Shown: piece by piece, positions 1,189 through 14,615 of the stretch
How the letters are laid out: every line of letters starts with the position of its first letter
Numbering within the stretch: position 1 is the first letter of the stretch
Assembly (NCBI GenBank): GCA_016219275.1
Contig: JACRBM010000067.1
Span: 62,001 to 126,000 of the forward strand
Source: Chloroflexota bacterium
GTDB taxonomy: Bacteria; Chloroflexota; Anaerolineae; UBA4142
Reading direction: 5' to 3'
Length of the DNA stretch: 64,000 bases
Made by a program: the position numbers and the translations under genes
Notes under the pieces: model-generated
Database searches by the model: none
The model's input: the letters and a program-made list of their open reading frames with translations, nothing else
What the model was told of the DNA's origin: nothing

Positions 1189-1217
1189 TTGACAAAGACC
1201 AGGACCTGTGGTAAATC
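1189..1217 (+). promoter_or_regulatory. promoter of the importer leader
   Basis: TTGACA at 1189-1194 and TAAATC at 1212-1217 are separated by 17 bases. The expected start of transcription is only a few bases before the leader ATG at 1228, so the leader mRNA would be almost leaderless. The same arrangement precedes the aro operon at 4302-4331. Confidence 0.65.
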
Positions 1218-1227
1218 CTTCATCAAG

Positions 1228-1329
1228 ATGACGAACCGATTTTCGACTCAGCGAGGCTTGTACAAGTTTGAGGGCATCTGGTACTTTTATGCTGACAGTG
1301 CCACGCGGGGTCGAATCGTCACGCGCTAG
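1228..1329 (+). CDS. attenuator leader peptide with aromatic codons (WYFY), 33 aa
   Basis: The short frame starts at ATG 1228 and ends at TAG 1327-1329. It encodes Y12, F14, then W18-Y19-F20-Y21. It sits just behind a sigma-70-like promoter and just ahead of a strong terminator, the standard position of an attenuation leader. It is laid out like the Phe/Tyr leader at 4341: similar length, aromatic cluster ending at codon 21, Ser6-Thr7 shared, and the stop beside the same RNA element. It also contains a Trp codon, which the other leader lacks. I infer that ribosome stalling on aromatic codons releases transcription of the importer genes. No homologous leader is known to me. Confidence 0.7.
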   Translation: MTNRFSTQRGLYKFEGIWYFYADSATRGRIVTR

Positions 1330-1377
1330 TCTAGCCGTACTCGAAATCAGGGAGCGTGGGATTCAACCCCACGCTCC
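1242..1377 (+). promoter_or_regulatory. transcription attenuator with alternative 1:2, 2:3 and 3:4 pairings
   Basis: Arm 1 (TTCGAC, 1242-1247, within the leader codons) can pair with arm 2 (GTCGAA, 1310-1315). Arm 2 can instead pair with arm 3: GAATC 1313-1317 with GATTC 1360-1364, and CACGC 1320-1324 with GCGTG 1354-1358. Arm 3 is also the 5' side of the terminator (1351-1360). A ribosome that reaches the TAG at 1327 covers arm 2 and lets the terminator form; one stalled on the aromatic codons leaves arm 2 free. Confidence 0.7.
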
Positions 1378-1385
1378 TTTCATTT
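1351..1385 (+). terminator. attenuator terminator of the importer operon
   Basis: GGAGCGTGGG (1351-1360) and CCCACGCTCC (1368-1377) form a perfect 10-bp stem with a seven-base loop, followed by TTTCATTT. Stem and loop are identical to the aro operon terminator at 4467-4493. Confidence 0.85.
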
Positions 1386-1414: not shown

Positions 1415-2578
1415 ATGTCTCAACGTTTCACAATTCTCGCGTTGTTCGTCGTTGCGATCCTGCTCGCCGCGTGCGCGACACCCACGCCGACGGCTGTTCC
1501 GCCGACGGCTGTGCCCGCGACGAAAGCGCCGGAGCCGACGAAAGCCGCGGCAACTGTCGCGCCAACCGTTGCGCCCACCGCCGTGCCCGCGACCAAAGCG
1601 CCCGAACCGACGAAACCGCCGGAGCCAACCAAAGCCGCCGCGCCGGACAAGGTCACGGTCGCGTACGTCGCGATCACGAACTTTGCGCCGCTCTACATCG
1701 CGATCGAGCGCGGGTACATGAAAGAGCAAAACATCGAAGTGTCCGCGCAAAAAGTGACGACCGCCGCGGACGCACTGCCGTTCCTCGCGACCGGGCAGTA
1801 CGACGCGGGTGGGATCGGTATGGCGGCGGCGACGTTCAACGGGTTCAACAAAGCGTTGGACTTTCGCATCGTCGCCTCGGCGGCGATTCAGCCGTTGAAA
1901 AATGGTCCGACTGTGATCCTGGTTCGCAAGGATTTGAAAGATTCCGGCAAAGTGAAATCCGTCGCCGATTTGAAAGGCATGAAAGTCGGAGTTGCCGGCG
2001 CGGCGGGTTCGACCGGCGCGTACTTTGTTGCCAAAGCATTGCGCGATGTCAACTTGACGTTCAAAGACATCACCGCTGTCAATCTCGCCAATCCCGACCT
2101 GGTGCTCGCGATGAAACAATCATCGGTGGATGCCGCGCTCGTCGGTCCGCCGTACTCGGATCAGATCCTCAAGGATGGCACGGGTGTTTTGCTCGCGCAG
2201 GATACCGCACCAGGCGCGATGACGACGGTGTGGATGTACTCGGGCAAGTTCATCAAGGAACGCCCGGACGTTGCCAGACGCTTTATGCTCGCGCTCGTCA
2301 AGGGTTCGCGCGCGATGCAGGGCGCCAAGTACCTCGATCCGGAAAACATCAAGGCGTACATCAAGTACACGCCTTCGACCGAAGACGCGATCAAGACTGG
2401 CATCCCGCCGTTCATTGATCCTGACTTGAAAGTGTACCTCGACAGCGTCAAAAGTTTGGAAGAAGTTTTCCGTGCTGAAGGGTGGACGGATTACACAAAC
2501 GTGATTGCGGCGGACAAGATGGCAGATACCTCCTTTGTGGACAATGCCGTCAAAGTTCTGGGTGCGTTCAAGCCGTAG
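1415..2578 (+). CDS. NitT/TauT-type ABC transporter substrate-binding lipoprotein
   Basis: ATG 1415 is chosen because AGGAGGAGA lies just upstream; the frame stays open further 5' but runs through the attenuator. The product has 387 residues. It has a lipoprotein signal ending in LLAAC (Cys20), then a Thr/Pro/Ala linker with ATPTPTAVPPT-like repeats to about residue 75, then an NMT1/SsuA-like binding fold. Recognisable parts are APLYIAIERGYMKEQNIEV, PFLATGQYDAGGIG and ADLKGMKVGVAG. It would deliver a ligand to the ATPase and permease encoded next. Family members bind sulfonates, nitrate, pyrimidine precursors or aromatic compounds, so the family does not fix the ligand. The leader points to something linked to aromatic amino acids. 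Confidence 0.88.
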   Translation: MSQRFTILALFVVAILLAACATPTPTAVPPTAVPATKAPEPTKAAATVAPTVAPTAVPATKAPEPTKPPEPTKAAAPDKVTVAYVAITNFAPLYIAIERGYMKEQNIEVSAQKVTTAADALPFLATGQYDAGGIGMAAATFNGFNKALDFRIVASAAIQPLKNGPTVILVRKDLKDSGKVKSVADLKGMKVGVAGAAGSTGAYFVAKALRDVNLTFKDITAVNLANPDLVLAMKQSSVDAALVGPPYSDQILKDGTGVLLAQDTAPGAMTTVWMYSGKFIKERPDVARRFMLALVKGSRAMQGAKYLDPENIKAYIKYTPSTEDAIKTGIPPFIDPDLKVYLDSVKSLEEVFRAEGWTDYTNVIAADKMADTSFVDNAVKVLGAFKP

Positions 2579-2589
2579 TGTAAAGGATG

Positions 2590-2645
2590 AAGGCAGAAGG
2601 ATGAAGGATGAATTCGCATTTTTCATTCTTCTGCCTTTTTGATAA
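2590..2645 (+). terminator. stem-loop with T-run between binding protein and ATPase genes
   Basis: AAGGCAGAAGGATGAA (2590-2605) pairs with TTCATTCTTCTGCCTT (2622-2637), with one weak pair, and is followed by TTTTTG. It probably acts as a leaky terminator or mRNA stabiliser that keeps the binding protein more abundant than the membrane components. The arms resemble the AAGGATGAAGGATGA-type repeat seen near 17.9 kb. Confidence 0.6.
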
Positions 2646-2647
2646 TT

Positions 2648-3427
2648 ATGCCGATCAAGATCAAAGCGACGAACGTTTGTAAATCGTATCCCGCGCGGGG
2701 CGGCACGGTGACCGCGCTAACGAATTTCAATCTAAAAGTGCAAGAAGGTGAATTCGTTTGTATCGTCGGTCCTTCCGGTTGCGGCAAGTCTACGTTTCTG
2801 CGGATGCTGGCTGGTTTGTCGCCGGTCACGTCGGGGCAAGTGACACTTGTGCCCGGCAAATCCGGAACGCCGTTGCAAAGCATCGTCTTTCAAGAGTACG
2901 CGATCTTTCCCTGGAAGACGGTGCTCGACAACGTCGCGTTCGGATTGCAGATGCGCGGGATGCCGCGCGCGCAACGCCACGCCGTTGCGACCGACTGGCT
3001 GAAAAAAGTTGGCTTGGCGAAATTTGCGAATGCGTATCCCCATCAACTTTCCGGCGGAATGAAACAGCGCGTCAGCATCGCGCGCGCATTCGCGAACGAT
3101 CCCGAAATTTTGTTGATGGACGAGCCGCTCGGCGCGCTCGACGCGCAGACGCGCACGGTTCTGCAAGAAGAATTGATCCGGTTGTGGGAAGCGTCGCGCA
3201 AGACGGTCGTGTACATCACGCACAGCATCGAAGAAGCGGTGTTGCTTGGCGACCGCGTGATTTTGATGACCGCGCATCCTGGGATGTTCAAATGCGAATT
3301 CGCGGTGCCGTTCCCGCGCCCTCGCGCGTTTGAATTGACCGGCACGCCCGAGTTTAGCCGGTTGACCTACGCGATCTGGAAAGAACTGCAAGGCGAGGTG
3401 CAGCGCGCGATGGAGCAACAAGCATGA
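2648..3427 (+). CDS. NitT/TauT-type ABC transporter ATP-binding protein
   Basis: This 259-residue ATPase energises the importer. It has Walker A GPSGCGKST, Q-loop FQEYAIFPW, signature LSGGMKQRVSIARA, Walker B ILLMDEP with the D-loop GALDA, and the H-loop THS, in the order and length usual for SsuB/TauB proteins. No ribosome binding site is visible before ATG 2648. A TTG three codons upstream (2639) is an alternative start but lies in the T-run of the preceding hairpin. Its last four bases overlap the permease gene (ATGA), so the two are translationally coupled. Confidence 0.9.
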   Translation: MPIKIKATNVCKSYPARGGTVTALTNFNLKVQEGEFVCIVGPSGCGKSTFLRMLAGLSPVTSGQVTLVPGKSGTPLQSIVFQEYAIFPWKTVLDNVAFGLQMRGMPRAQRHAVATDWLKKVGLAKFANAYPHQLSGGMKQRVSIARAFANDPEILLMDEPLGALDAQTRTVLQEELIRLWEASRKTVVYITHSIEEAVLLGDRVILMTAHPGMFKCEFAVPFPRPRAFELTGTPEFSRLTYAIWKELQGEVQRAMEQQA

Positions 3428-4305
3428 AACTCGATACCGACACACGCGACCGCTTGCTCGCCATCGGCTTTCCGTTATTCCTGCTCGCGTTGTGGGAATT
3501 CGTCGTGCGCGCGCAATGGCTCGACGGACGGTTCTTTCCCGCGCCGTCGGCGGTCGCGGTGGCGCTGTGGAATCTGACGGCGAAGGGTGATTTGCTCGGC
3601 AAGGTCTGGTTGCTGCCCGGCGCGCTCGCCCTGGGCGATTGGGACGCGGCGCAAAAAATTATCATCGAAGGACATTTGTGGGTGAGTCTGTTCCGCATCT
3701 TTGCCGGTTTCTTTCTCGGCGCGATCCCAGGTATCGTGCTCGGCGTCATCATGGGCATGAGCCGCTCGGTGCGGGTCGCACTCGACCCGGTGATTTCGGC
3801 GGTGTATGTTCTGCCCAAGATCGCGATCCTGCCGCTCGTGATGTTGATTTTCGGTATCGGCGAAACGAGCAAGGTGGTCATCGTCGGCATCTCGTCGTTC
3901 TTTCTCGTGCTGATCAATACGACGGTCGGCGTGCGCGACATCGAGCCGATCTTTTTTGAAGCGGCGAAGAATTACGGCGCGAATCGTTGGCAAATGTTCT
4001 GGCATGTGATTATTCCCGGCGCATTGCCGGTTATTTTCGCCGGACTGCGGCTCAGTCTCGGCACGGCGCTCATCGTCATCATCGCGGCGGAGTTCGTCGC
4101 GGCGCAGTATGGGTTGGGTTATTTGATTTGGTTTTCGTGGCAAACCTTGCTCACCGAAAATATGTTTGCCGGTTTGGTCGTGGTAATGATTCTGGGCGCG
4201 TTGTTTACGAGCGGACTGCAAACCATCGAACATTGGTGGATGCCTTGGGAACGCGAAGAACGTCACGTCACGATGAACGCGCCGGACGCGCCAAAACCGA
4301 TTTGA
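3424..4305 (+). CDS. NitT/TauT-type ABC transporter permease
   Basis: The 293-residue membrane protein has about six hydrophobic segments. Near residue 180 it carries the EAA loop that contacts the ATPase (EAAKNYGANRWQMFWHVIIPGALP). It overlaps the ATPase gene by ATGA, so binding protein, ATPase and permease form one importer operon. Its TGA stop (4303-4305) is part of the TTGACA box of the downstream aro promoter, so the two operons are packed with no spare base. Ligand unknown; see the attenuator evidence for a link with aromatic compounds. Confidence 0.9.
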   Translation: MKLDTDTRDRLLAIGFPLFLLALWEFVVRAQWLDGRFFPAPSAVAVALWNLTAKGDLLGKVWLLPGALALGDWDAAQKIIIEGHLWVSLFRIFAGFFLGAIPGIVLGVIMGMSRSVRVALDPVISAVYVLPKIAILPLVMLIFGIGETSKVVIVGISSFFLVLINTTVGVRDIEPIFFEAAKNYGANRWQMFWHVIIPGALPVIFAGLRLSLGTALIVIIAAEFVAAQYGLGYLIWFSWQTLLTENMFAGLVVVMILGALFTSGLQTIEHWWMPWEREERHVTMNAPDAPKPI

Positions 4306-4331
4306 CAAAACCACGCGAGTTGTGGTAAATT
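4302..4331 (+). promoter_or_regulatory. promoter of the aro/phe/tyr operon leader
   Basis: TTGACA at 4302-4307 overlaps the permease stop codon. TAAATT at 4326-4331 follows after 18 bases. Transcription should begin within a few bases of the leader ATG (4341), as at the importer leader. Confidence 0.7.
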
Positions 4332-4340
4332 CTCGCCACG

Positions 4341-4445
4341 ATGATGAAGCACAATTCGACCTCGGCGTTCGCGTTTTACTTTTACGGCTACTTTTATTTT
4401 TACGCCGGCGATGCACCGCGGGTCGAATCGTCACACCTTAGTTAG
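4341..4445 (+). CDS. Phe/Tyr-rich attenuator leader peptide, 34 aa
   Basis: The frame runs from ATG 4341 to TAG 4443-4445. Residues 10-21 read FAFYFYGYFYFY: five Phe and five Tyr in twelve positions, with no Trp. This is the composition expected of a leader that senses charged tRNA-Phe and tRNA-Tyr, and the downstream operon makes exactly these two amino acids. The start lies about 10 bases after the -10 box, so no ribosome binding site fits and translation is probably leaderless. The last codons overlap arm 2 of the attenuator, 17 bases beyond the last Tyr codon. It is analogous in design to enterobacterial pheA leaders, without evident homology. Confidence 0.88.
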   Translation: MMKHNSTSAFAFYFYGYFYFYAGDAPRVESSHLS

Positions 4446-4493
4446 CCGTAATCAGGCAACAACACAGGAGCGTGGGATTCAACCCCACGCTCC
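4354..4493 (+). promoter_or_regulatory. Phe/Tyr transcription attenuator with alternative pairings
   Basis: Arm 1 ATTCGACC (4354-4361) is complementary to arm 2 GGTCGAAT (4421-4428). Arm 2 can also pair with arm 3: GAATC 4425-4429 with GATTC 4476-4480, and CAC 4432-4434 with GTG 4472-4474. Arm 3 is the 5' side of the terminator. The arm 2 core GGTCGAATCGTCAC is identical to that of the importer leader but is read in a different frame by the leader peptide. Conservation is therefore at RNA level. Confidence 0.8.
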
Positions 4494-4503
4494 TTTTCTT
4501 TTT
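4467..4503 (+). terminator. attenuator terminator of the aro/phe/tyr operon
   Basis: GGAGCGTGGG (4467-4476) and CCCACGCTCC (4484-4493) form a perfect stem with a seven-base loop, followed by TTTTCTTTTT. It lies between the leader peptide stop and aroH. Confidence 0.9.
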
Positions 4504-4514
4504 CGGGAGCAGCC

Positions 4515-4913
4515 ATGTCACTTCGCGGAATTCGCGGCGCAACTACCTCCAACGCCAACACGCGCGAGGCGATTCTCGACGCGACGCGCGAACTGTTGGA
4601 CACGATCGCGCGCCGCAACGACTTGCATCCGGACGATGTCGTCAGCGCCGTGTTCACCGTCACCCCCGACCTCGACGCGGCATTCCCCGCCGCCGCCGCG
4701 CGCCAACTCGGTTGGACGCACACCGCGCTCCTCGATATGCTCGCGCCACGCGTGCCCACCGATCTGTCGCGCTGCATCCGCGTGATGATTCACTGGAACA
4801 CCGAACGCTCCCCGCACGAGGTCCGCCACGTTTATTTGCGCGACGCGCGCAAACTCCGCCCCGACTGGGCAACGATTACGGAAGAATTTCCCGAAACAGG
4901 AGAAGCCAAATGA
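4515..4913 (+). CDS. aroH: chorismate mutase, AroH type
   Basis: The 132-residue protein converts chorismate to prephenate, the branch step to Phe and Tyr. It begins MSLRGIRGATT, the typical start of monofunctional AroH mutases, and keeps the family pattern with VVSAVFTVTPDLDAAFPA in the middle and a conserved stretch IRVMIHWNT near residue 95. Length is close to the usual 120-130. GGGAG lies upstream of ATG 4515, directly after the attenuator terminator, so it is the first structural gene of the operon. It overlaps pheA by four bases (ATGA). Confidence 0.9.
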   Translation: MSLRGIRGATTSNANTREAILDATRELLDTIARRNDLHPDDVVSAVFTVTPDLDAAFPAAAARQLGWTHTALLDMLAPRVPTDLSRCIRVMIHWNTERSPHEVRHVYLRDARKLRPDWATITEEFPETGEAK

Positions 4914-5731
4914 CCCGCATCGCGTTTCAAGGTGAGCATGGTGCGTATTCGCAAGAAGCCATTTTCCAAACGTTTGGCAACGAGGTCGAGACGATTCCGT
5001 GCCGCACGTTTTTCGATCTCTTTCGCACGGTGGACGAAGACCGCGCTGAGCTCGCGATGGTGCCGATTGAAAATTCGACGGCGGGCGCGATCAATCAATC
5101 GTACGATTTGTTGCTCGATTACGATTTGAAAATCACGCGCGAAGTGATCCTGCGCGTGCGCCACGCGTTGTTGGTTGTGCCCGGCGCGACGCTTCAGGAT
5201 GTGAAACGCGTGTACTCGCATCCGTCCGCCATCGCGCAGTGCGAGCGATTTATCGCGAGCAACGGCTGGGACGCGATTGTCGTGTACGACACGGCGGGCG
5301 CGGCGAAACAAATCGCCGAGACACGCGAGCCGAATGCCGCCGCGATTGCGAGCGAGACCGCCGCGCGCGTCTACGGCTTGGACATTCTCGCGCGCGATGT
5401 CCAGGATATCGTGAACAACTTTACGCGCTTTTTTGTCGTCGGTCGCCACGAACCGCCGCGCGCCGAGAAATCCAAAACGTCGCTCGTGTTCGCGACGCGG
5501 CACATTCCCGGCGCGCTCTACGCGTGCCTCGGCGAATTTTCGACGCGCGGGATCAACCTCGCGAAAATCGAATCGCGTCCCGACCGGCGACGACCCTGGC
5601 ATTACGTGTTCTATCTCGACTTTGAAGGACACTGGGACGACCCAGCGTGCCGCGAGGCGTTAGTCGGTCTGTTGAATAAATCATCGTTCATCAAAGTGCT
5701 GGGTTCGTACCCCGCGGCATCAAATCAGTAG
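4910..5731 (+). CDS. pheA: prephenate dehydratase with ACT domain
   Basis: The 273-residue enzyme turns prephenate into phenylpyruvate. The catalytic part (about 1-180) has FQGEHGAYSQEA, VPIENSTAGA, YSHPSAIAQCERF and the TRF motif NNFTRFFVV. The C-terminal part (about 190-273) is an ACT regulatory domain with SLVFATRHIPGALYACL and the Phe-binding ESRP motif. Feedback inhibition by Phe is therefore likely, in addition to attenuation. ATG 4910 is used because it overlaps the aroH stop. No mutase domain is fused, in keeping with the separate aroH upstream. Confidence 0.93.
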   Translation: MTRIAFQGEHGAYSQEAIFQTFGNEVETIPCRTFFDLFRTVDEDRAELAMVPIENSTAGAINQSYDLLLDYDLKITREVILRVRHALLVVPGATLQDVKRVYSHPSAIAQCERFIASNGWDAIVVYDTAGAAKQIAETREPNAAAIASETAARVYGLDILARDVQDIVNNFTRFFVVGRHEPPRAEKSKTSLVFATRHIPGALYACLGEFSTRGINLAKIESRPDRRRPWHYVFYLDFEGHWDDPACREALVGLLNKSSFIKVLGSYPAASNQ

Positions 5732-5745
5732 CGCGAATTTTGTAA

Positions 5746-6111
5746 CGCAAGTTTCCAACTTGCGACATAGGCAAGTTGGGAACTTGGTTTACATTTTGAA
5801 TCGTAGCGCAAGTTTCCAACTTGCGACATAGGCAAGTTAGAAGCTTGGTTTACATTTTGAATCGTCGCGCAAGTTTCCAACTTGCGACGTAGGCAAGTTA
5901 GAAACTGGGTTTACATTTTGAATCGTCGCGCAAGTTTCCAACTTGCGACACAGGCAAGTTAGAAGCTTGGTTTACATTTTGAATCATCGCGCAAGTTTCC
6001 AACTTGCGACGTAGGCAAGTTAGAAGCTGGGTTTACATTTTGAATCATCGCGCAAGTTTCCAACGTGCGACGTAGGCAAGTTAGAAACTTGCCCCACATC
6101 ATAGGAGGGAA
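5746..6111. repeat. six-copy, 61-bp tandem repeat with internal palindromes
   Basis: The 5732-6118 gap between pheA and the first DAHP synthase holds no gene. The string CGCAAGTTTCCAACTTGCGA begins at 5746, 5807, 5868, 5929, 5990 and 6051 (last copy with one change), a strict 61-base period. Each unit carries the palindrome CGCAAGTT-TCC-AACTTGCG, a second weaker one (GGCAAGTT..AACTTG.C), and the string TTTACATTTTGAATC. The last unit runs into AGGAGGGA, the ribosome binding site of the next gene. Confidence 0.95.
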
Positions 6112-6118
6112 TGCAATT

Positions 6119-7132
6119 ATGGTTATCGTCATGCAACATCACGCGACGAGCGAGGAAATCCAGAACGTCATGCAGTACGTCGAATCGCTCGGCTTTAGTC
6201 CGCATCCGATCTACGGCGAAGAACGCACGATCATCGGCGTCGTCGGCGACGAACGTCCCATCGAGCCAGACACGTTCGATCTGATGCCGGGCGTCGAACG
6301 CACGATGCGAATTCTGCATCCGTTCAAACTCGCCTCGCGCGATTTTCACGTGGAGGATTCCATCGTCAAGATCAACGGCGTCAGCGTCGGCGGTTCGCAA
6401 GTGATCGTGATGGCGGGACCGTGCTCGGTCGAATCGCGCGAACAAATCATGGAAACGGCGGCGGCGATCAAGCAAGCCGGCGCGACGATGTTGCGCGGCG
6501 GCGCGTACAAACCGCGCACGTCCCCCTACGCGTTCCAGGGTCTGGGATTGAAAGGACTTGAACTCTTGCGCGAAGCGCGCGAGGCGTACCAGTTGCCCAT
6601 CATCACCGAGGTGATCTCGCCGCAAGATGTCACGCTCGTCGCGCAGTACGCCGACGTGTTTCAGATCGGCGCGCGCAACATGCAAAATTACGCGTTGCTC
6701 CACGCGGTCGGCGAAACGCAAAAACCGGTTCTGCTCAAACGCGGCATGATGTCCACTGTCGAAGAATTGTTGATGGCGGCAGAATATATCTTGTCGCACG
6801 GCAATCAGCGCGTCATGTTGTGCGAGCGCGGCATTCGCACGTTCGAGACGGTCACGCGCAACACCTTCGACGTGAACGCGATTCCCGCGCTCAAAGCGTT
6901 GACGCATTTGCCGGTGGTCGCCGATCCGTCGCATGGCACCGGCAAGTGGGAGTACGTCACACCCATCGCGCGCGCCGCGGTCGCCGCCGGCGCGGACGGG
7001 TTGATCGTCGAAGTGCATCCCGATCCGGCGCGCGCGCGCAGCGATGGCGCGCAATCGCTCAAGCCGGACAATTTCGCCCGGCTCGTCGCCCAAGTCCGTC
7101 GCGTCGCGGAAGCGATTGATCGCACCGTGTAG
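6119..7132 (+). CDS. aroF: 3-deoxy-7-phosphoheptulonate (DAHP) synthase, type I-beta, copy 1
   Basis: The enzyme joins phosphoenolpyruvate and erythrose 4-phosphate, the first step of the shikimate pathway. It has 337 residues from ATG 6119, chosen for AGGAGGGA just upstream and equal length with copy 2. Residues 1-70 are a ferredoxin-like ACT-type regulatory domain as in the Thermotoga enzyme; the rest is the barrel, with [45 protein letters not shown] and DPSHGTGK. In the Thermotoga protein this domain gives Tyr/Phe feedback control. It aligns without gaps to copy 2 next door, so the pair arose by tandem duplication. Confidence 0.93.
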
Positions 7133-7180
7133 CGCAAGTTTCCAACTTGCGTCAGGGCAAATTGGAAATTTGCCTTACAT
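7133..7180. repeat. single copy of the CGCAAGTTTCCAACTTGCG palindrome
   Basis: The 66-base gap between the two DAHP synthase genes carries GCGCAAGTTTCCAACTTGCG, then GGCAAATTGGAAATTTGCC, then TTACATTTC. This is one diverged unit of the 61-bp repeat found before copy 1, so gene and upstream element were probably duplicated together. Confidence 0.85.
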
Positions 7181-7198
7181 TTCAAAAGGAGTAATCGT

Positions 7199-8212
7199 AT
7201 GGTCATCATTATGAAACACAACGCGCCAGCCGAAAACATTGACGCGTTGATCAAACACGTCGAATCACTGGGTTTCAAAACGCATCTCTCGCGCGGCGAA
7301 GAACGCACGATCATCGGACTCATCGGCGACGAACGACCCATCGAGCCGGAACATTTCGAAGCGTTCGACGGCGTCGAGCGCGTCGTGCGCGTCCTGCATC
7401 CATTCAAACTTGCGTCGCGCGATTTTCACCCGGCGGATTCGGTTGTCCGCATCAACGGCGTCAGCGTCGGCGGCAATCAAGTCATCGTGATCGCGGGACC
7501 GTGTTCCGTCGAATCGCGCGAGCAGTTGTTCGAAACCGCGGCAGCGGTGAAAGATGCCGGCGCGCACATCTTGCGCGGCGGTGCGTTCAAGCCGCGCACG
7601 TCGCCGTACGCGTTCCAGGGTCTCGGTTTGCGCGGACTCGAATTGTTGCGCGAAGCGCGCGATCTGTTCCACTTGCCGGTCGCGACCGAGGTAATGTCGC
7701 CGCAGGAGGTGACGCTCGTCGCGCAGTACGCGGATATTTTGCAGATCGGCGCGCGCAACATGCAAAACTATTCACTCTTGCGCGCGGTCGGCGAAACGCA
7801 AAAACCGATTCTGCTCAAGCGCGGCATGATGTCCACCGTCGAAGAATTGTTGATGGCGGCGGAGTACATTCTCGCGCAGGGCAACAATCGCGTGATGGTG
7901 TGCGAGCGTGGCATTCGCACGTTCGAAACTGGGACGCGTAACACGTTCGACATCAACGCGATTCCGTTGCTCAAATCGTTGACGCACTTGCCGGTGATCG
8001 CCGACCCGTCGCACGGTACGGGTAAGTGGGAACTGGTCGCGCCGGTCGCGCGCGGCGCGATTGCCGCGGGCGCAGACGGCGTGATCGTCGAAGTGCATCC
8101 GCATCCCGAACTCGCGTTGAGCGACGGCGCGCAATCGCTCAAGCCGGCGAACTTTGCCGCAATGGTCGCGGATGTGCGCCGCGTTGCGGAAGCGGTCGGT
8201 CGAACGGTGTGA
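7199..8212 (+). CDS. aroF: DAHP synthase, type I-beta, copy 2
   Basis: The second 337-residue DAHP synthase keeps all catalytic motifs of copy 1 ([49 protein letters not shown]). Differences cluster in the first 70 residues, the regulatory ACT-like domain, for example at the KTHLSRG loop. This suggests, without proving, that the copies differ in feedback specificity, for instance Phe against Tyr. AAAGGAG lies upstream of ATG 7199. The gene is in the same operon and ends 44 bases before tyrA. Confidence 0.93.
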
Positions 8213-8213
8213 A

Positions 8214-8252
8214 ATGGCGGACGGCGAATGGCGAATGGCGAATGGGCGAATG
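8214..8252. repeat. short GCGAATGG tandem repeat before tyrA
   Basis: Three to four copies of GGCGAATG-like octamers occupy the gap between the second DAHP synthase and tyrA. The same motif recurs upstream of the short cyclase near 56.68 kb. No strong ribosome binding site for tyrA is visible here. Confidence 0.7.
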
Positions 8253-8256
8253 ACAC

Positions 8257-9147
8257 ATGGATGAAGATGGTTTTGCTTGGCGCGATTCCGTTATCGCGAT
8301 AGTTGGTCTGGGTTTGATGGGTGGTTCATTCGCGCTGGCTTTGCGCGAACATCGCGCGTGCGCGCGCATCCTCGCGGTCGAACGCAACGCGGCGACGCGC
8401 GCAGATGCGCTTGCGCGCGGCAGCGTAGATGAAGCGAGTGACGATCTCGCGCTCGTCGCACGCGCCGACGTGATCGTGCTTGCGACGCCGGTGCGTGTCA
8501 TCGTCGAATTGGTGCCACGCGTTGGCGCGCTCACGCGACCCGGCGCGGTCGTGTTCGACCTGGGTTCGACGAAGCGCGCGATTGTGAACGCGATGGAAAA
8601 TTTGCCCACGCACATTCACGCGATTGGCGCGCACCCAATGTGCGGCAAAGAAACGTCCGGGTTCGACGCGGCGGACGCGAATCTTTTTCGCGATGCTCCA
8701 TTTGTATTGACGCCGCTCGCACGAACAACCCAGGAAACCGTCACTCGCCTCGCGTCACTCGCCACACGCCTGGGTTCGCGTCCGCTCGTGCTCGATGCGG
8801 CGCGGCACGACAAGATTGTCGCGGCGATCAGTCATCTGCCGTTCGCAGTCGCGTCTAACTTGATGATGACGGCGAGTGAATTCGCGCAGAACGACGATGC
8901 GCTGTTCGCACTCGCAGCGTCCGGTTTTCGCGACACGTCCCGTCTTGCCGCGAGCAACACGACGATGATGCTCGACATTTTGCTGACGAATCGCGATCAC
9001 GTCGCCGCGTGCCTCCGCGACTATTCGCGCAACCTCAATGCGCTCGCCGACGCGATCGAGCGCGGCAATGATGACACGTTGCGCGCGCGTTTGCAAAGCG
9101 CAGCGGAACTGCGACGCGGGTTGTTTCAAATCGCAAATAGCGGATAG
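8257..9147 (+). CDS. tyrA: prephenate dehydrogenase
   Basis: The 296-residue enzyme oxidises prephenate to 4-hydroxyphenylpyruvate for Tyr synthesis. The N-terminal Rossmann fold has GLGLMGGSFALAL and ADVIVLATPV. The catalytic region has IGAHPMCGKETSGFDAADANLF near residues 127-148, with the conserved His and the GxxxSG-like segment, and a helical C-terminal half follows (AASGFRDTSRLAASN). No ACT domain is fused, so Tyr control may act through attenuation and the DAHP synthases. The start ATG 8257 has no clear ribosome binding site. Confidence 0.92.
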   Translation: MDEDGFAWRDSVIAIVGLGLMGGSFALALREHRACARILAVERNAATRADALARGSVDEASDDLALVARADVIVLATPVRVIVELVPRVGALTRPGAVVFDLGSTKRAIVNAMENLPTHIHAIGAHPMCGKETSGFDAADANLFRDAPFVLTPLARTTQETVTRLASLATRLGSRPLVLDAARHDKIVAAISHLPFAVASNLMMTASEFAQNDDALFALAASGFRDTSRLAASNTTMMLDILLTNRDHVAACLRDYSRNLNALADAIERGNDDTLRARLQSAAELRRGLFQIANSG

Positions 9148-9220
9148 CGTATGGCAAATTGCAAATTGTATGGTGCGATCCGCTATCTGCCATTTGCTAA
9201 TCGCCACTTGGAAATCAAAA

Positions 9221-10522
9221 ATGCCAGAATATCAAATCACTCCATCTTCCAAACCACTTCGCGGCACACTTACCGTGCCCGCCGACAAATCCATCTCACA
9301 TCGCGCGGCGATTTTCGCGTCGCTCGCCGAGGGCGCGACGCGCATCGAAAATTTTTTGCCGAGCGAAACGACGCACGCAACGCTCGATTGCTTGCGCGCG
9401 ATGGGCGCGGAGATCGAGCAACGCGATGCGACGACACTCGTGGTTCGCGGACGCGGGATGCGCGGTTTGCGCGAGCCGAGTGACATTTTGTTTTGCAAAG
9501 GATCGGGCACGACGATGCGTTTGCTCGCCGGGTTGTGCGCGGGACAGAACTTTCTTTCGATTCTCGACGGTACGCCCGCGCTCAAACGTCGCCCGATGGC
9601 GCGCGTCGCCGAGCCGCTCCGCGCGATGGGCGCGACGATTCTCGCGCGCGACGATGGCAAACTGCCCCCGCTTGCAATACGCGGCGGCAATCTGCGCGGG
9701 ATCGAGTACACGATGAACGTCGCGAGCGCGCAAGTCAAATCCGCGATTCTGCTCGCCGCGCTCTTCGCCGATTCGCCCACGACAGTGCGCGAACCCAGTT
9801 TGTCACGCGATCACACGGAGAGGATGTTGCAAGGTTGTGGAATCGAATTGCGAATTGCGAATTGCGAAACGCGAATTAATCCAACTTCAAATCTCCAACT
9901 TCCAACTTCCAATTTCCAAATTCCAAATGATTTTTCCTCCGCCGCGTTCTTCATCGTCGCCGCGCTCATCGTGCCGCAATCGGAATTGTGTTTGCAAAAC
10001 GTCGGCGTCAACGCGACGCGCACCGGGTTGCTCGACGCGCTGACGCGGATGGGCGCGCGTGTCGCGATTGAAAACGCGCGCGATGAGTCGGGCGAACCGG
10101 TCGGCGATGTCATCGCGCGCGCGAGCCGCTCCGCGTTGCGCGCGACCGAGATCGCTGGCGATGAGGCGCCGCGCATGATTGACGAATTTCCGATTTTCGC
10201 GATTGCGGCAACCCAGGCGCGCGGCGAAACGATCGTGCGCGACGCGCAAGAACTGCGCGTCAAGGAGTCGGACCGCATCGCGACGCTCGCGCAAGAAATC
10301 CGCAAGATGGGCGCGCAGATCGAGGAACGCGACGATGGATTCATCATCGCAGGACCGACGCCGTTGCGCGGCGCGCGCGTCTCGGCGCACAACGATCATC
10401 GGCTCGCGATGGCGCTCGCGGTCGCCGCGCTCATCGCGCGCGGCGAAACGATCATCGAGGGCTGGGAATGCGTCGCCGATTCGTTTCCGAATTTTGCCGA
10501 AACCCTGGAGGGCATTCAATGA
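9221..10522 (+). CDS. aroA: 3-phosphoshikimate 1-carboxyvinyltransferase (EPSP synthase)
   Basis: The 433-residue enzyme adds the enolpyruvyl group to shikimate 3-phosphate. Motifs in order: DKSISHRAA, GSGTTMRLLAG, RRPMARVAEPLRAMGA, SRDHTERML, DFSSAAFF, ELRVKESDR and HNDHRLAMALAVAAL. ATG 9221 matches the usual N-terminus; the open frame further 5' overlaps tyrA. Two oddities are visible. The usual GNSGT motif reads KGSGT. Residues 210-235 are encoded by a low-complexity repeat (LRIANCETRINPTSNLQLP...) just before the conserved D-S-S-A-A-F block, where other enzymes have a short VPGD turn. It overlaps aroE by ATGA. Confidence 0.93.
   Translation: MPEYQITPSSKPLRGTLTVPADKSISHRAAIFASLAEGATRIENFLPSETTHATLDCLRAMGAEIEQRDATTLVVRGRGMRGLREPSDILFCKGSGTTMRLLAGLCAGQNFLSILDGTPALKRRPMARVAEPLRAMGATILARDDGKLPPLAIRGGNLRGIEYTMNVASAQVKSAILLAALFADSPTTVREPSLSRDHTERMLQGCGIELRIANCETRINPTSNLQLPTSNFQIPNDFSSAAFFIVAALIVPQSELCLQNVGVNATRTGLLDALTRMGARVAIENARDESGEPVGDVIARASRSALRATEIAGDEAPRMIDEFPIFAIAATQARGETIVRDAQELRVKESDRIATLAQEIRKMGAQIEERDDGFIIAGPTPLRGARVSAHNDHRLAMALAVAALIARGETIIEGWECVADSFPNFAETLEGIQ
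9842..9930 (+). repeat. low-complexity repeat embedded in the aroA coding sequence
   Basis: GAATTGCGAATTGCGAATTGCGAAA is followed by a CCAACTTCCAACTTCCAATTTCC-like run. The segment is in frame and adds about 26 residues. It shares the peptide NPTSNLQ with the insert in the full-length cyclase at 59.3 kb. Confidence 0.8.
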
Positions 10523-11400
10523 AACGTGTTTTTCTGATAGGATATCCGGTCAAGCATTCCTTGTCGCCCGCGATGCAGAACGCCGCGTTTCGCGCGCTGA
10601 ACTTGGATTGGGAGTATGGTTTACTCGAAACACCGCGCGATCAATTAGGAGAGGTCGTCGCGCGTATCCGCCTCGACGATTGCACGGGCGCGAATGTGAC
10701 CGTGCCGCATAAAGAAGCGGTGATGCCATACTTGGACGACATCGCCGATCACGCGCGTCACGTGGGCGCGGTGAACACCATCATCAAACGGGATGGCAAG
10801 CTGATTGGCGATAATACCGACGTGTATGGCATTGTTCAAACGTTGACCCAGGCATTAGTAAAGATGCGCGGCGCGCGCGTGGCAATCCTGGGCGCGGGCG
10901 GCGCGGCGCACGCGGCGGCGTTCGCGCTCGCCGAGTCCGGCGCGGCGCACATCGTGATCGTGAACCGCACGCACACGCGCGCGGCAATGCTCGCCGAACG
11001 TGTGCGCGGAGAATTTCCTCGCGTGACCGTCACGGCGAACGAGACCGAATCCCTCGCCCGCGCGCAGATCATCATCAATGCGACGCCGGTCGGCATGACA
11101 CCGCGCGAAGGTGAATCGCCGATGACGTACGCGTTTCCGCGTCACGCCGTCGCGTTCGATCTGGTTTATCGTCCTTTGCAAACGCGGTTCCTGCGCGAAG
11201 CCGAACTCGCCGGGGCGCGTGCGATTGGCGGTCTTGGAATGCTGGTGCATCAAGGCGTCGAGGCATTCAAGTTGTGGACCGGCTACCGCGTCCCGGATCA
11301 GATCATGCTCGACGCGGCGATGGCGGAATTGGAACGCGCGCGCGAATTGAAACGCGGCGCGAGTGAGGTTAGGCATGTTGCGATTCTTGACAGCCGGTGA
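10519..11400 (+). CDS. aroE: shikimate dehydrogenase
   Basis: The 293-residue enzyme reduces 3-dehydroshikimate to shikimate with NADPH. It has the substrate motif GYPVKHSLSPAMQN, the catalytic Lys in NVTVPHKEA, GDNTDVYG, and the dinucleotide loop GAGGAAHAAAF followed by NRT, which suits NADP. ATG 10519 overlaps the aroA stop. Its last 26 bases overlap the start of aroC, giving tight translational coupling. Confidence 0.93.
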   Translation: MKRVFLIGYPVKHSLSPAMQNAAFRALNLDWEYGLLETPRDQLGEVVARIRLDDCTGANVTVPHKEAVMPYLDDIADHARHVGAVNTIIKRDGKLIGDNTDVYGIVQTLTQALVKMRGARVAILGAGGAAHAAAFALAESGAAHIVIVNRTHTRAAMLAERVRGEFPRVTVTANETESLARAQIIINATPVGMTPREGESPMTYAFPRHAVAFDLVYRPLQTRFLREAELAGARAIGGLGMLVHQGVEAFKLWTGYRVPDQIMLDAAMAELERARELKRGASEVRHVAILDSR

Positions 11401-12505
11401 ATCACACGGACCGGCGCTCACGGGAATCGTCGAAGGATTGCCGGCGGGTTTGCGTGTGGACGCGGACGCGATCAATCGCGATCTGGCGCGACGACAAATT
11501 GGCGTGGGGCGTTCGGCGCGGATGCGGATCGAAACGGATCGCGTCGAAATCCTGGGCGGCGTGGTGGACGGCAAAACGATTGGCGCGCCGGTCGCGTTGC
11601 GAATCGAAAATCTCGATTACGCGAATTGGAAGGACAAGGTTGTCCCGCCGCAAACGATTCCCCGACCGGGGCACGCCGATCTTGCCGGTGCGATCAAGTA
11701 CGGGTTCGACGATTTGCGGATGGTCGCGGAACGCGCGAGCGCGCGCGAAACCGCGATGCGCGTTGCATGCGGCTCCGTCGCGCGCCAACTCCTCGCGGAA
11801 TTTGGAATCATCCTCGGCAGTCACGTGCTCGAAATCGGCGGCATCATCGCCCAAGTTCCTTCCATTCCATACGCAGAAATTTTTTCCCGCGCCCAGGCAT
11901 CCGACGTAATAGTCGCCGACGAGACGAGCGCGACAAAAATCCGCGAACGCATCGAAGAGGTGATGCGCGCAAAAGATACCATCGGCGGCGTAATCGAAAT
12001 CGTCGCGCTCAATGTGCCGGTCGGACTCGGCTCGCACGTGCAGTGGGACCGCAAACTCGATGGGCGGCTCGCGCAAGCAGTGATGAGCATTCAATCGGTC
12101 AAGGGCGTTGAGATCGGCGATGCGTGGGAGAATGCGCGCAAGGTGGGGACGCAGGTGCAGGATGAGATTGTTGCAACAGACCAATTACCAATTACCAATC
12201 ACAAATTTACACGGCAAACAAATCGCGCCGGAGGACTTGAAGGTGGGATCACGAACGGGATGCCGATTGTGATTCGCGCCGCGCTGAAACCGATCGCGAC
12301 GACGGTGACGCCGTTGCGTTCGATTGATCTCGCGACCGGCGAACCGGCGCTCGCGCAATATCAACGTTCGGATTTTTCACACGTGCCGCGCGCGTGCGTG
12401 ATCGGCGAGGCGATGGTCGCGTTCGTGCTTGCCGACGCGTTGATGGAAAAACTGGGTGGCGATTCGATCAATGAAATGAGACAACGAATGGAGAATCTCA
12501 AATGA
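11375..12505 (+). CDS. aroC: chorismate synthase
   Basis: The 376-residue FMN-dependent enzyme makes chorismate from EPSP. It starts MLRFLTAGESHGPALTG, the typical N-terminus, at ATG 11375 with GAGG upstream. Further motifs are GRSARMRIETDR, RPGHADLAGAIKYG, ERASARETAMRVA, NRAGGLEGGITNG and the DFSHVPRACVIGEAM tail. Residues 267-280 (ATDQLPITNHKFT) are coded by a CCAATTACCAATTACCAATC repeat lying in the variable loop between DEI and R-TN. It overlaps aroE and aroKB. Confidence 0.94.
   Translation: MLRFLTAGESHGPALTGIVEGLPAGLRVDADAINRDLARRQIGVGRSARMRIETDRVEILGGVVDGKTIGAPVALRIENLDYANWKDKVVPPQTIPRPGHADLAGAIKYGFDDLRMVAERASARETAMRVACGSVARQLLAEFGIILGSHVLEIGGIIAQVPSIPYAEIFSRAQASDVIVADETSATKIRERIEEVMRAKDTIGGVIEIVALNVPVGLGSHVQWDRKLDGRLAQAVMSIQSVKGVEIGDAWENARKVGTQVQDEIVATDQLPITNHKFTRQTNRAGGLEGGITNGMPIVIRAALKPIATTVTPLRSIDLATGEPALAQYQRSDFSHVPRACVIGEAMVAFVLADALMEKLGGDSINEMRQRMENLK
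12173..12213 (+). repeat. short AT-rich direct repeat inside aroC
   Basis: CCAATTACCAATTACCAATCAC lies in frame within a loop of chorismate synthase. It resembles the low-complexity inserts in aroA and the cyclase but is shorter. Confidence 0.6.
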
Positions 12506-14103
12506 GTCAACCACGTGTTGCGCCGATTGTTTTGACCGGCTTTATGGGCGCAGGCAAGACCTCGGTCGGCAAAGTGATTGCCGAAAGACTGGGTCGCGAA
12601 TTTGTGGACATGGATGTCGCGATTCAAGCGGCGGAAGGCATGACGATTCCCGAAATGTTCAACGTGCACGGCGAAGCGTACTTTCGCGCGCGCGAAACCG
12701 AGTGGTGCGCGCGGCTGGCGCAAAGTGAGAATCACGTCGTCGCCACCGGCGGCGGCGCGATGGTGAATCCAAACAATCGGGCGTATTTCAAAGACGCGTT
12801 AGTCGTGTGTCTCGATGCGCCCCCCGATGATATTTACAATCGGCTCAAGCATCAACACGATCGTCCCTTGTTGCAATCGGCAAACCCGCAACAACGCATC
12901 GTCGAGTTGATGAACGCGCGGCGCGACGCGTATGCCCAGGTCGAATGGCATTTGAACACGCACGACAAGACGGTGGAGCAGGTCGCCGATGAAATCGTCG
13001 GTTTGTTGCAACCGCGCAAAATCAACGTGTCCGCGCCAGACAGCGTGTGTCCGATTTTTGTCGGCGCGGGTTTGCTGGGGCAGGTGGGACGCTTGATGAA
13101 TTTGACGCGGGATAGTTTTTCGCCGCATTGCGCGATCATCACGAATCCGCGCGTGAGCCGATTGCACGCCGCGCCGGTGGTCGAATCGTTGCGCGCGCGT
13201 AATTTCGAACCGCACATCATCGAAATTCCCGATAGCGAAAAGTACAAGACGCTCGATTCCGTGCGGATGATTTACGATCAACTGATTGACGCGCAACTCG
13301 ACCGCCAGTCCATCGTCTTCGCGCTGGGCGGCGGTGTCATCGGCGATGTCGCCGGCTTTGCGGCGGCGACGTACTTGCGCGGCGTGTCGTTCGTGCAAAT
13401 GCCGACGACCTTGTTGGCGATGGTGGACGCGAGCATCGGCGGTAAAGCCGCGGTGGATCATCCGCGCGGCAAAAATCTGGTGGGCGCATTCAAGCAACCG
13501 TTCGCGGTGATCGCGGACACCGACGCGCTCGCCACGCTGCGTGAGGAAGAATTACATTCGGGCATGGCAGAGGTCGTCAAGCACGGCATCATCGAAGATG
13601 TGGGCTTGTTCGAGATGCTGGAACGCGATCCGAATTCGTCGCCGGTGCCGATGGAAGGTCGGCGCAGTTGGATCGCCCGCGCGATGCAGGTCAAGATCAA
13701 TATTGTCGCGCGCGATCCGCTCGAACAAGGCGAGCGCGGCAAGCTGAACCTGGGGCACACGTTCGGGCACGCGTTCGAGTTGTTGTCGAATTTCGAATTG
13801 CAACACGGCGAGGCGGTTGCGATTGGGCTGGTGTGCGCGACGCGCTTGGCGGCGCGGCGCGGGATGTGCGAGGCGACGCTCGTCGCGCGCGTCGAAAACC
13901 TTTTACGCGCGATTGATCTACCGACGCGCGTGCCATCTGCCATGTCCACTGATGTGATTCTCGACGCGATGGGGACGGACAAGAAACGCGTCGGCGCGCA
14001 ATTGCGGTTCGTATTGCCGCGCGCGCTGGGCGATGTGGTCATCGTGGATAATGTGCCGCGTGAGGATGTGATCGCGGCGATTGAAGAAACGCGCGAAGAA
14101 TGA
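12502..14103 (+). CDS. aroKB: bifunctional shikimate kinase / 3-dehydroquinate synthase fusion
   Basis: The 533-residue protein carries two shikimate-pathway activities. Residues 1-170 are a shikimate kinase with P-loop GFMGAGKTS, DMD, a conserved YFRARETE and GGGAMV. Residues about 175-533 are a dehydroquinate synthase with DSEKYKT, LGGGVIGDVAGFAAATYLRG, PTTLLAMVDASIGGKAAVDHPRGKNLVG and the metal-ligand motif GHTFGHAFE. ATG 12502 overlaps the aroC stop (ATGA). Fusion of these two neighbouring genes occurs in several phyla. It is the last gene of the operon; only dehydroquinase is missing and lies convergently downstream. Confidence 0.95.
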   Translation: MSQPRVAPIVLTGFMGAGKTSVGKVIAERLGREFVDMDVAIQAAEGMTIPEMFNVHGEAYFRARETEWCARLAQSENHVVATGGGAMVNPNNRAYFKDALVVCLDAPPDDIYNRLKHQHDRPLLQSANPQQRIVELMNARRDAYAQVEWHLNTHDKTVEQVADEIVGLLQPRKINVSAPDSVCPIFVGAGLLGQVGRLMNLTRDSFSPHCAIITNPRVSRLHAAPVVESLRARNFEPHIIEIPDSEKYKTLDSVRMIYDQLIDAQLDRQSIVFALGGGVIGDVAGFAAATYLRGVSFVQMPTTLLAMVDASIGGKAAVDHPRGKNLVGAFKQPFAVIADTDALATLREEELHSGMAEVVKHGIIEDVGLFEMLERDPNSSPVPMEGRRSWIARAMQVKINIVARDPLEQGERGKLNLGHTFGHAFELLSNFELQHGEAVAIGLVCATRLAARRGMCEATLVARVENLLRAIDLPTRVPSAMSTDVILDAMGTDKKRVGAQLRFVLPRALGDVVIVDNVPREDVIAAIEETREE

Positions 14104-14141: not shown

Positions 14142-14615
14142 TCAATCGTCGTAGCCGATCTGATTCTCTTCTTTCTTTTGCTCGTGCAGAATTGCGAGCA
14201 GCGCTTTGAGTCCGTACAAATAACTACGCCAACCCAGTCCGCAAATCATCCCGACGCAAACCGGCGTGAGCACAAGTTTGTGCCGAAATTCTTCGCGCGC
14301 GTGAATGTTCGACAAATGGACTTCGATGGTTGGCAATTTCACGGCGGAGAGCGCGTCGCGAATCGCGATGGAATAGTGCGAGTATGCGCCGGGATTGATA
14401 ACGATGCCGTCCGCCCAATTGCGCGCATCCTGAATCGCGTCCACGATCCCGCCTTCACTGTTCGATTGGAACACCGTCAGTTCCGCCCCGTTCTCTTCGG
14501 CGACCTTTTTCATCCGCGCGTTGATTTCATCAAAACCGACCGTGCCGTATATCCCCGGCTCGCGCCAGCCGAGCAGATTCAAGTTCGGTCCGTGCATGAG
14601 TAAGATTTTCAACAT
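14142..14615 (-). CDS. aroQ: type II 3-dehydroquinate dehydratase
   Basis: The 157-residue enzyme dehydrates 3-dehydroquinate to 3-dehydroshikimate. It has the start ILLMHGPNLNLLGWREPGIYG with the catalytic Tyr, QSNSEGGIVDAIQDA, NPGAYSHYSIAIRDAL, and the conserved His in EVHLSNIHAREEFRH. It completes the set that the plus-strand operon lacks, but it is on the other strand and so outside the attenuator's control. The extended C-terminal tail (KKEENQIGYDD) is not conserved as far as I know. Confidence 0.94.
   Translation of the reverse strand: MLKILLMHGPNLNLLGWREPGIYGTVGFDEINARMKKVAEENGAELTVFQSNSEGGIVDAIQDARNWADGIVINPGAYSHYSIAIRDALSAVKLPTIEVHLSNIHAREEFRHKLVLTPVCVGMICGLGWRSYLYGLKALLAILHEQKKEENQIGYDD

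Follow-up and report, generated by a model that had tools for sequence, protein, structure and literature searches.

Which signal might govern transcription of the chorismate mutase and prephenate dehydratase genes (aroH-pheA) of an organism that is known solely from assembled genomes is the question raised by the DNA directly ahead of them. It was addressed by computational analysis of the window, i.e. the whole stretch of 64 kb, and of related genomes. An earlier, sequence-only reading had placed a promoter, a 34-codon leader with five Phe and five Tyr codons in twelve positions, and a terminator there; all of these were found in the sequence at exact positions. Its assignment of the DNA to Chloroflexota agreed with the nearest named relatives, which belong to Anaerolineae.

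Architecture of the leader ahead of aroH-pheA

The element, here called leader 2, occupies positions 4302-4504 of the window and comprises the following features.

4302..4331, + strand: promoter (TTGACA at 4302-4307, 18-nt spacer, extended -10)
4341..4445, + strand: leader ORF 2 (ATG at 4341, 34 codons, stop codon TAG at 4443-4445)
4355..4374, + strand: arm 1 (core TTCGACC at 4355-4361), directly 5' of the control codons; partner, arm 2
4415..4436, + strand: arm 2 (core GGGTCGAATC at 4420-4429, tail GTCAC); partner, arm 1 or arm 3
4470..4485, + strand: arm 3 (GCGTGGGATTCAACCC), comprising the terminator's 5' stem and its loop; partner, arm 2 or arm 4
4466..4504, + strand: intrinsic terminator, composed of the 3:4 hairpin (4466-4494, 11-pair stem) and a T-rich tail

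The extended -10 reads TGTGGTAAATT, with the TG-extended hexamer TAAATT at 4326-4331, and the promoter pattern TTGACA-17/18-TANNNT was kept in relatives. The upstream permease gene ends within the -35 box (4302-4307), which contains its stop codon, so that both units are packed without a spacer. The leader peptide is MMKHNSTSAFAFYFYGYFYFYAGDAPRVESSHLS, and its control codons (codons 10-21, 4368-4403) comprise 5 Phe and 5 Tyr codons in 12; the absence of a Trp codon from this run, as previously claimed, was confirmed. Arm 2 is located inside the ORF, ahead of the stop codon, and the terminator begins 20 nt past TAG, with the start of aroH at 4515. The pairings 1:2, 2:3 and 3:4, which had been described as drawable, were confirmed as three alternatives: TTCGACC of arm 1 pairs with GGTCGAA of arm 2, and arm 2 (GGGTCGAATC followed by CAC) pairs with arm 3 (GTG followed by GATTCAACCC) with one mismatch.

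The fold combining 1:2 and 3:4 was the minimum-free-energy structure of the leader 2 region (-58.4 kcal/mol, z = -5.5), and none of 200 shuffled sequences folded as low. By ensemble folding, the stalled state had 11.8 pairs of 2:3, the free RNA 22.2 pairs of 1:2, and the complete RNA 10.9 pairs of 3:4 with no 2:3. At least 10 Phe or Tyr codons in 12 before a stop occurred once on the + strand of the window, never on its - strand and never in 40 Markov sequences of 64 kb. The combination of an F/Y run with a terminator was found twice in the window, namely in leader 2 and in the second copy described below, while 391 kb of other pheA loci yielded only two Anaerolineales loci and one low-complexity stretch.

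Genes behind leader 2 and reach of control

The genes downstream of leader 2 are listed below.

4515-4913, + strand: aroH (chorismate mutase), first gene behind leader 2
4910-5731, + strand: pheA (prephenate dehydratase), its reading frame overlapping aroH
6065..14103, + strand: further aromatic genes, i.e. two DAHP synthases (aroF, aroF2), tyrA, aroA, aroE, aroC and an aroKB fusion

The aroH-pheA pair certainly lies downstream of the attenuator. The genes from aroF to aroKB (aroF, aroF2, tyrA, aroA, aroE, aroC and aroKB) are possibly under leader 2 control as well, which depends on read-through of the gap at 5731-6065; this gap contains a strong hairpin (5748-5786), located 3' of pheA and ahead of the first DAHP synthase gene, which may restrict the attenuator's reach. 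The statement that the downstream genes make exactly Phe and Tyr held for aroH, pheA and tyrA and failed for the two aroF genes, aroA, aroE, aroC and aroKB, the products of which also feed Trp and folate. At its end the aromatic cluster faces, in convergent orientation, an apparent type II 3-dehydroquinate dehydratase gene (aroQ, 14142-14615, - strand).

A second copy ahead of an ABC importer

A covariance model built from six leaders detected exactly two strong copies in the genome of the window, with 138 and 124 bits; the latter is a paralogous leader at 1189-1379, a complete further copy of the element that the sequence-only reading had overlooked.

1189..1379, + strand: leader 1 (TTGACA at 1189-1194, -10 TAAATC at 1212-1217, ORF at 1228-1329, arms 1-3)
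1415-2578, + strand: NMT1/SsuA-like substrate-binding protein, ABC importer operon under leader 1
2639-3427, + strand: ABC importer ATPase, same operon
3424-4305, + strand: ABC importer permease, same operon

The stem and loop of the leader 1 terminator (1349-1379) are identical to those of the leader 2 terminator. Its peptide, MTNRFSTQRGLYKFEGIWYFYADSATRGRIVTR, carries a weaker and interrupted aromatic run (Y, F, W, Y, F, Y) that includes one Trp codon. In the relative G012, a binding-protein gene of 91% identity stands behind the same leader. The operon (1415..4305) is regarded as a candidate aromatic-compound importer. A perfect 12/12 match to a sigma-70 promoter (TTGACA-16-TATAAT) is present at 1017-1044 on the - strand, facing away from leader 1.

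Conservation across Anaerolineae

Of 60 genomes, 37 had an AroH homologue, and a clear F/Y-rich ORF with a terminator directly upstream of aroH was present at about 22 of the 30 loci read, with leaders such as MIKHYSTYAFYFYGYFYAAERTRGRIVTP, ...WRGFYFAYFFAYA... and ...GYYYYYYYARG... as examples. In G002, G010 and G011, which belong to the window's family, the leader is present and an extra gene stands between it and aroH. A blind scan of 298 genomes of the class was done with the terminator pattern GCGTGGAGCN{1,14}CCACGCYTTTT, in which neither leader nor gene was used. It gave 33 sites in 32 genomes (reversed-pattern control, 0). An aromatic-codon leader ORF was found upstream of 29 of the 30 sites read (weakly at L201 and L202), and the downstream gene at these 29 sites was aroH, in one case pheA; the match at L175 was without a leader. 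In 106 Chloroflexota genomes from other classes the pattern gave no match, which rules out this terminator there, not every attenuator. Within the window's order, the covariance model matched 16 of 20 genomes. Weak matches at L084, L087, L103, L109, L110, L112 and L114 were ordinary hairpins without leaders, and L016 was left out because the choice of its aromatic ORF was doubtful.

The comparison of leaders upstream of aroH-pheA that had been suggested earlier thus showed that the aromatic codon run is conserved across many Anaerolineae families, together with the terminator and all three arms. Indels inside the F/Y run of relatives were multiples of three, TAC and TAT alternated at Tyr positions, and Phe and Tyr were frequently exchanged, whereas loss of an aromatic codon was rare. 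In L093 and L096 of the window's family, a fragment resembling the N-terminus of an IS110-type transposase (YFVGLD...) lies directly behind the leader.

Pairing arms in the window's family and in the class

Variation in the arms is almost absent from the window's family (97.3% of the arm 1:2 cells paired in 16 leaders), so that pair counting is uninformative there and class-wide swap tests were used; the support from covariation is that of the wider class, not of the window's family. The apex of the terminator varies across the class and arm 2 follows it: among 49 leaders, 0 of 20,000 swaps were as good as the own pairing, with average energies of -11.1 kcal/mol for own partners and -8.6 kcal/mol for swapped ones. 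A separate class-wide swap test also supported the 2:3 and 1:2 pairings, and within one family a compensatory change from CAGCCGG/CCGGCTG to CAGCCAG/CTGGCTG (terminator/arm 2) was observed.

For the masking test, the RNA was removed up to a ribosome positioned on the second control codon, and 50 leaders were analysed by ensemble folding. With arm 1 masked, all 50 formed the antiterminator with at least six 2:3 pairs; arm 1 ends at the first control codons, which is where a stalled ribosome would cover it. About 12 leaders of other families (among them L019, L022, L182-L184 and L187-L192 of families f16 and f22) favoured 2:3 even in the complete ribosome-free RNA, some of their terminators being truncated in the test. 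As the antiterminator is favoured in the free RNA of these leaders, the default state may differ between families, and the modelled folds suggest such a difference between f16 and f22 and the window's family.

Start of translation

Sixteen leaders from the window's family and five from the sister family have their start codon 6-13 nt past the -10 box, which, with ordinary start-site spacing, would give an RNA with 0-6 nt before the start codon. No Shine-Dalgarno sequence was found in the leaders of the window's family, and their mRNA is probably leaderless. In other families the promoter lies farther upstream, and some leaders (L014, L020) have Shine-Dalgarno-like sequences. Leaderless leader ORFs have been described for trpL of S. 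meliloti (PMC7298713) and ilvBNC of C. glutamicum (PMC11857589), in which the start codon is likewise at or next to the 5' end of the transcript; those systems concern other amino acids, another phylum and unrelated RNAs, and the leaderless state is here predicted from spacing.

Genes sharing the element and the tyrS branch

In the window and its relatives, the same RNA stands ahead of aroH-pheA, the ABC importer, the aroKB fusion, a DAHP synthase gene, a gene for a PLP-dependent enzyme (of the transsulfuration type, located upstream of aroH) and tyrS; nearly all of these genes concern aromatic amino acids. Each of the two tyrS leaders, MLTHISIFAYDYYGYYYAAD and MQKRFMTYAYNSYGNYYYAAD, contains six Tyr codons and just one Phe codon, the latter beyond the run or at its margin, compared with 3-6 Phe codons in all the other copies. 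Both ORFs stop at TGA just ahead of arm 2, the nucleotides of which are still conserved. The use of Tyr codons in place of Phe codons and the conservation of arm 2 past the stop codon together make the strongest single case for the codons, rather than the peptide, being what counts. The attenuator reading was strongly supported by comparison; its scope had been underestimated, as the element serves a regulon of several genes, one branch of which is tuned to Tyr.

A different short Tyr-codon ORF, ending in ...YIY(F/S)SGL* or IYTYSSGL*, was seen upstream of tyrS at L136, L138 and L143 (families f8, f11 and f14), where it overlaps a conserved stem (AGCGGATTGTAG ... CTACAATCCGCT) that is followed by a hairpin. 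This element is possibly a second, unrelated Tyr attenuator.

Proposed mechanism and alternative explanations

Leader 2 is interpreted as a ribosome-mediated transcription attenuator that senses charged tRNA-Phe and tRNA-Tyr, to which a probability of about 0.92 is assigned; Tyr sensing alongside Phe is predicted from the codons. Transcription would start a few nucleotides before the leader ATG, and a ribosome would initiate on the nearly leaderless RNA behind RNA polymerase. When Phe or Tyr is short, the ribosome would stall in the F/Y run with its body, according to the geometry of the leader, covering arm 1; the 2:3 antiterminator would then form in place of the terminator, and aroH-pheA, possibly with genes beyond, would be transcribed. 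When both are plentiful, the ribosome would reach TAG, about 14 nt past arm 2, and cover arm 2 or let 1:2 re-form; 3:4 would pair and transcription would stop. It would also stop without translation, as 1:2 would form. The mixed run would work as an OR gate, responding when either amino acid is short, and through the paralogous copies uptake, shikimate genes and tyrS would come under this switch as well.

In one alternative, control of the 5' region would lie with direct sensing by the RNA, through a T-box, a riboswitch or an RNA-binding protein, the F/Y ORF being incidental. The strong alternative structure would suit such a device, and T-boxes (RF00230) do occur in several genomes of the class, at pheS (L145, L165) and trpE (L219, L223); a Phe-rich leader before pheS and a Trp-rich leader before trpE were sought and not found, with a T-box instead in two lineages tested for pheS and in two for trpE. 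No T-box was detected in the window, in the leader-bearing tyrS loci (L105/L115, L097/L121) or in the aroH loci L010/L017, and no Rfam family, including the enterobacterial Phe leader and other leader families, matched the window at the gathering threshold. A riboswitch, a T-box or another Rfam family was accordingly rejected; the best sub-threshold hit was the trpB motif RF04312, to which the terminator part is weakly similar (23.7 bits, with 59 required). Families have the aromatic run in common, not a fixed aptamer, the sequences of the 5' arms differ between them, and Phe codons are replaced by Tyr codons before tyrS; direct sensing is therefore considered very improbable. Still less credence is given to a functional small (membrane) protein with the hairpin merely as its terminator. 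An aromatic-rich hydrophobic segment with its own promoter and terminator would fit such a gene, but outside the run the families have no conserved peptide sequence, and both the length of the peptide and its C-terminus are variable. Arm 2 is kept even where the ORF ends before it (the tyrS copies), and it covaries with the loop of the terminator, for which a simple terminator would have no need.

That the leader senses a general slow-down of translation, or one amino acid (mainly Phe) with the Tyr codons as passive fillers, is unlikely, though it deserves more weight than either of the foregoing. Within the aroH-type run, no positions are more constant than the TTT Phe codons, and pheA makes Phe only; the Tyr codons of this run are nevertheless kept about as often as the Phe codons, the tyrS copies keep Tyr and drop Phe, and tyrA is located downstream. 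Attenuation governed by both amino acids remains the preferred interpretation of leader 2. For the whole set of copies, it is likely that one RNA switch, anciently conserved in Anaerolineae, was copied to many aromatic genes and retuned by codon exchange, with mixed Phe/Tyr runs (OR gate) for synthesis and uptake and Tyr runs for tyrS.

Relation to known systems

The enterobacterial leaders pheL (pheA), pheM (pheST) and trpL are leader-peptide attenuators, and thrL and ilvL are mixed-codon attenuators, where a single run combines codons for at least two cognate amino acids and control is multivalent. Leader 2 likewise combines a short ORF, in which cognate codons are clustered, with arms 1-4 and a terminator before the first biosynthetic gene, and shares pheA as a target. 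It differs from pheL, pheM and trpL in its mixed Phe/Tyr codons, in arm 2 lying inside the ORF before the stop codon, in the lack of a Shine-Dalgarno sequence in the window's family, in the sharing of one element by several operons and in the lack of an Rfam sequence match. The mixed runs of thrL and ilvL concern Thr/Ile or branched-chain amino acids, here Phe and Tyr. T-box leaders of tyrS, pheS and trp genes act on the same genes and respond to the same tRNA-charging signal; unlike the present element, they bind tRNA directly and have no ORF.

For Acholeplasma, the uORFC-13-1 motif upstream of aroF has been proposed as a Phe-codon uORF with a terminator before a DAHP synthase gene, having at least one Phe codon, an RBS and 24 representatives in Acholeplasma and unassigned environmental sequences (PMC8632094). 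The present element shares the Phe-codon uORF and the terminator, and the window matched no Rfam family at threshold. According to a survey of 2010, leader-peptide attenuators had been known only in Proteobacteria and Actinobacteria, to which Firmicutes were added (PMC2965389). No description of leader-peptide attenuation in Chloroflexi, Chloroflexota or Anaerolineae was found in the open-access papers searched, which are part of the whole literature, in line with the earlier remark that none was known in Chloroflexota. Phe has been listed among the attenuator-controlled pathways, and Tyr under T-boxes (PMC1262725); a Tyr-codon attenuator at tyrS therefore appears to be new, as far as the open-access literature searched goes. 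The lineage, the joint Phe/Tyr sensing, the regulon and the Tyr tuning look undescribed, the mechanism itself being classical attenuation. If the interpretation is true, this would be the first Tyr-sensing leader-peptide attenuator known to us, leaderless-translated in the window's family.

Implications

The finding would extend classical attenuation to a phylum in which regulation has hardly been studied by experiment, and it provides directly testable predictions for uncultured bacteria, since the codon content names the amino acid that each operon would sense. For the NMT1-type ABC importer, the shared element predicts a function concerning Phe, Tyr or a precursor. As the copies differ mainly in their control codons, the family offers a natural experiment in which specificity can be traced to the choice of codons. 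With T-boxes at trpE and pheS versus leader peptides for Phe and Tyr synthesis, the lineage is also useful for studying how two unrelated RNA devices read one kind of signal. Most likely, judging from these leaders, such uncultured Chloroflexota make aromatic amino acids only when the supply is low.
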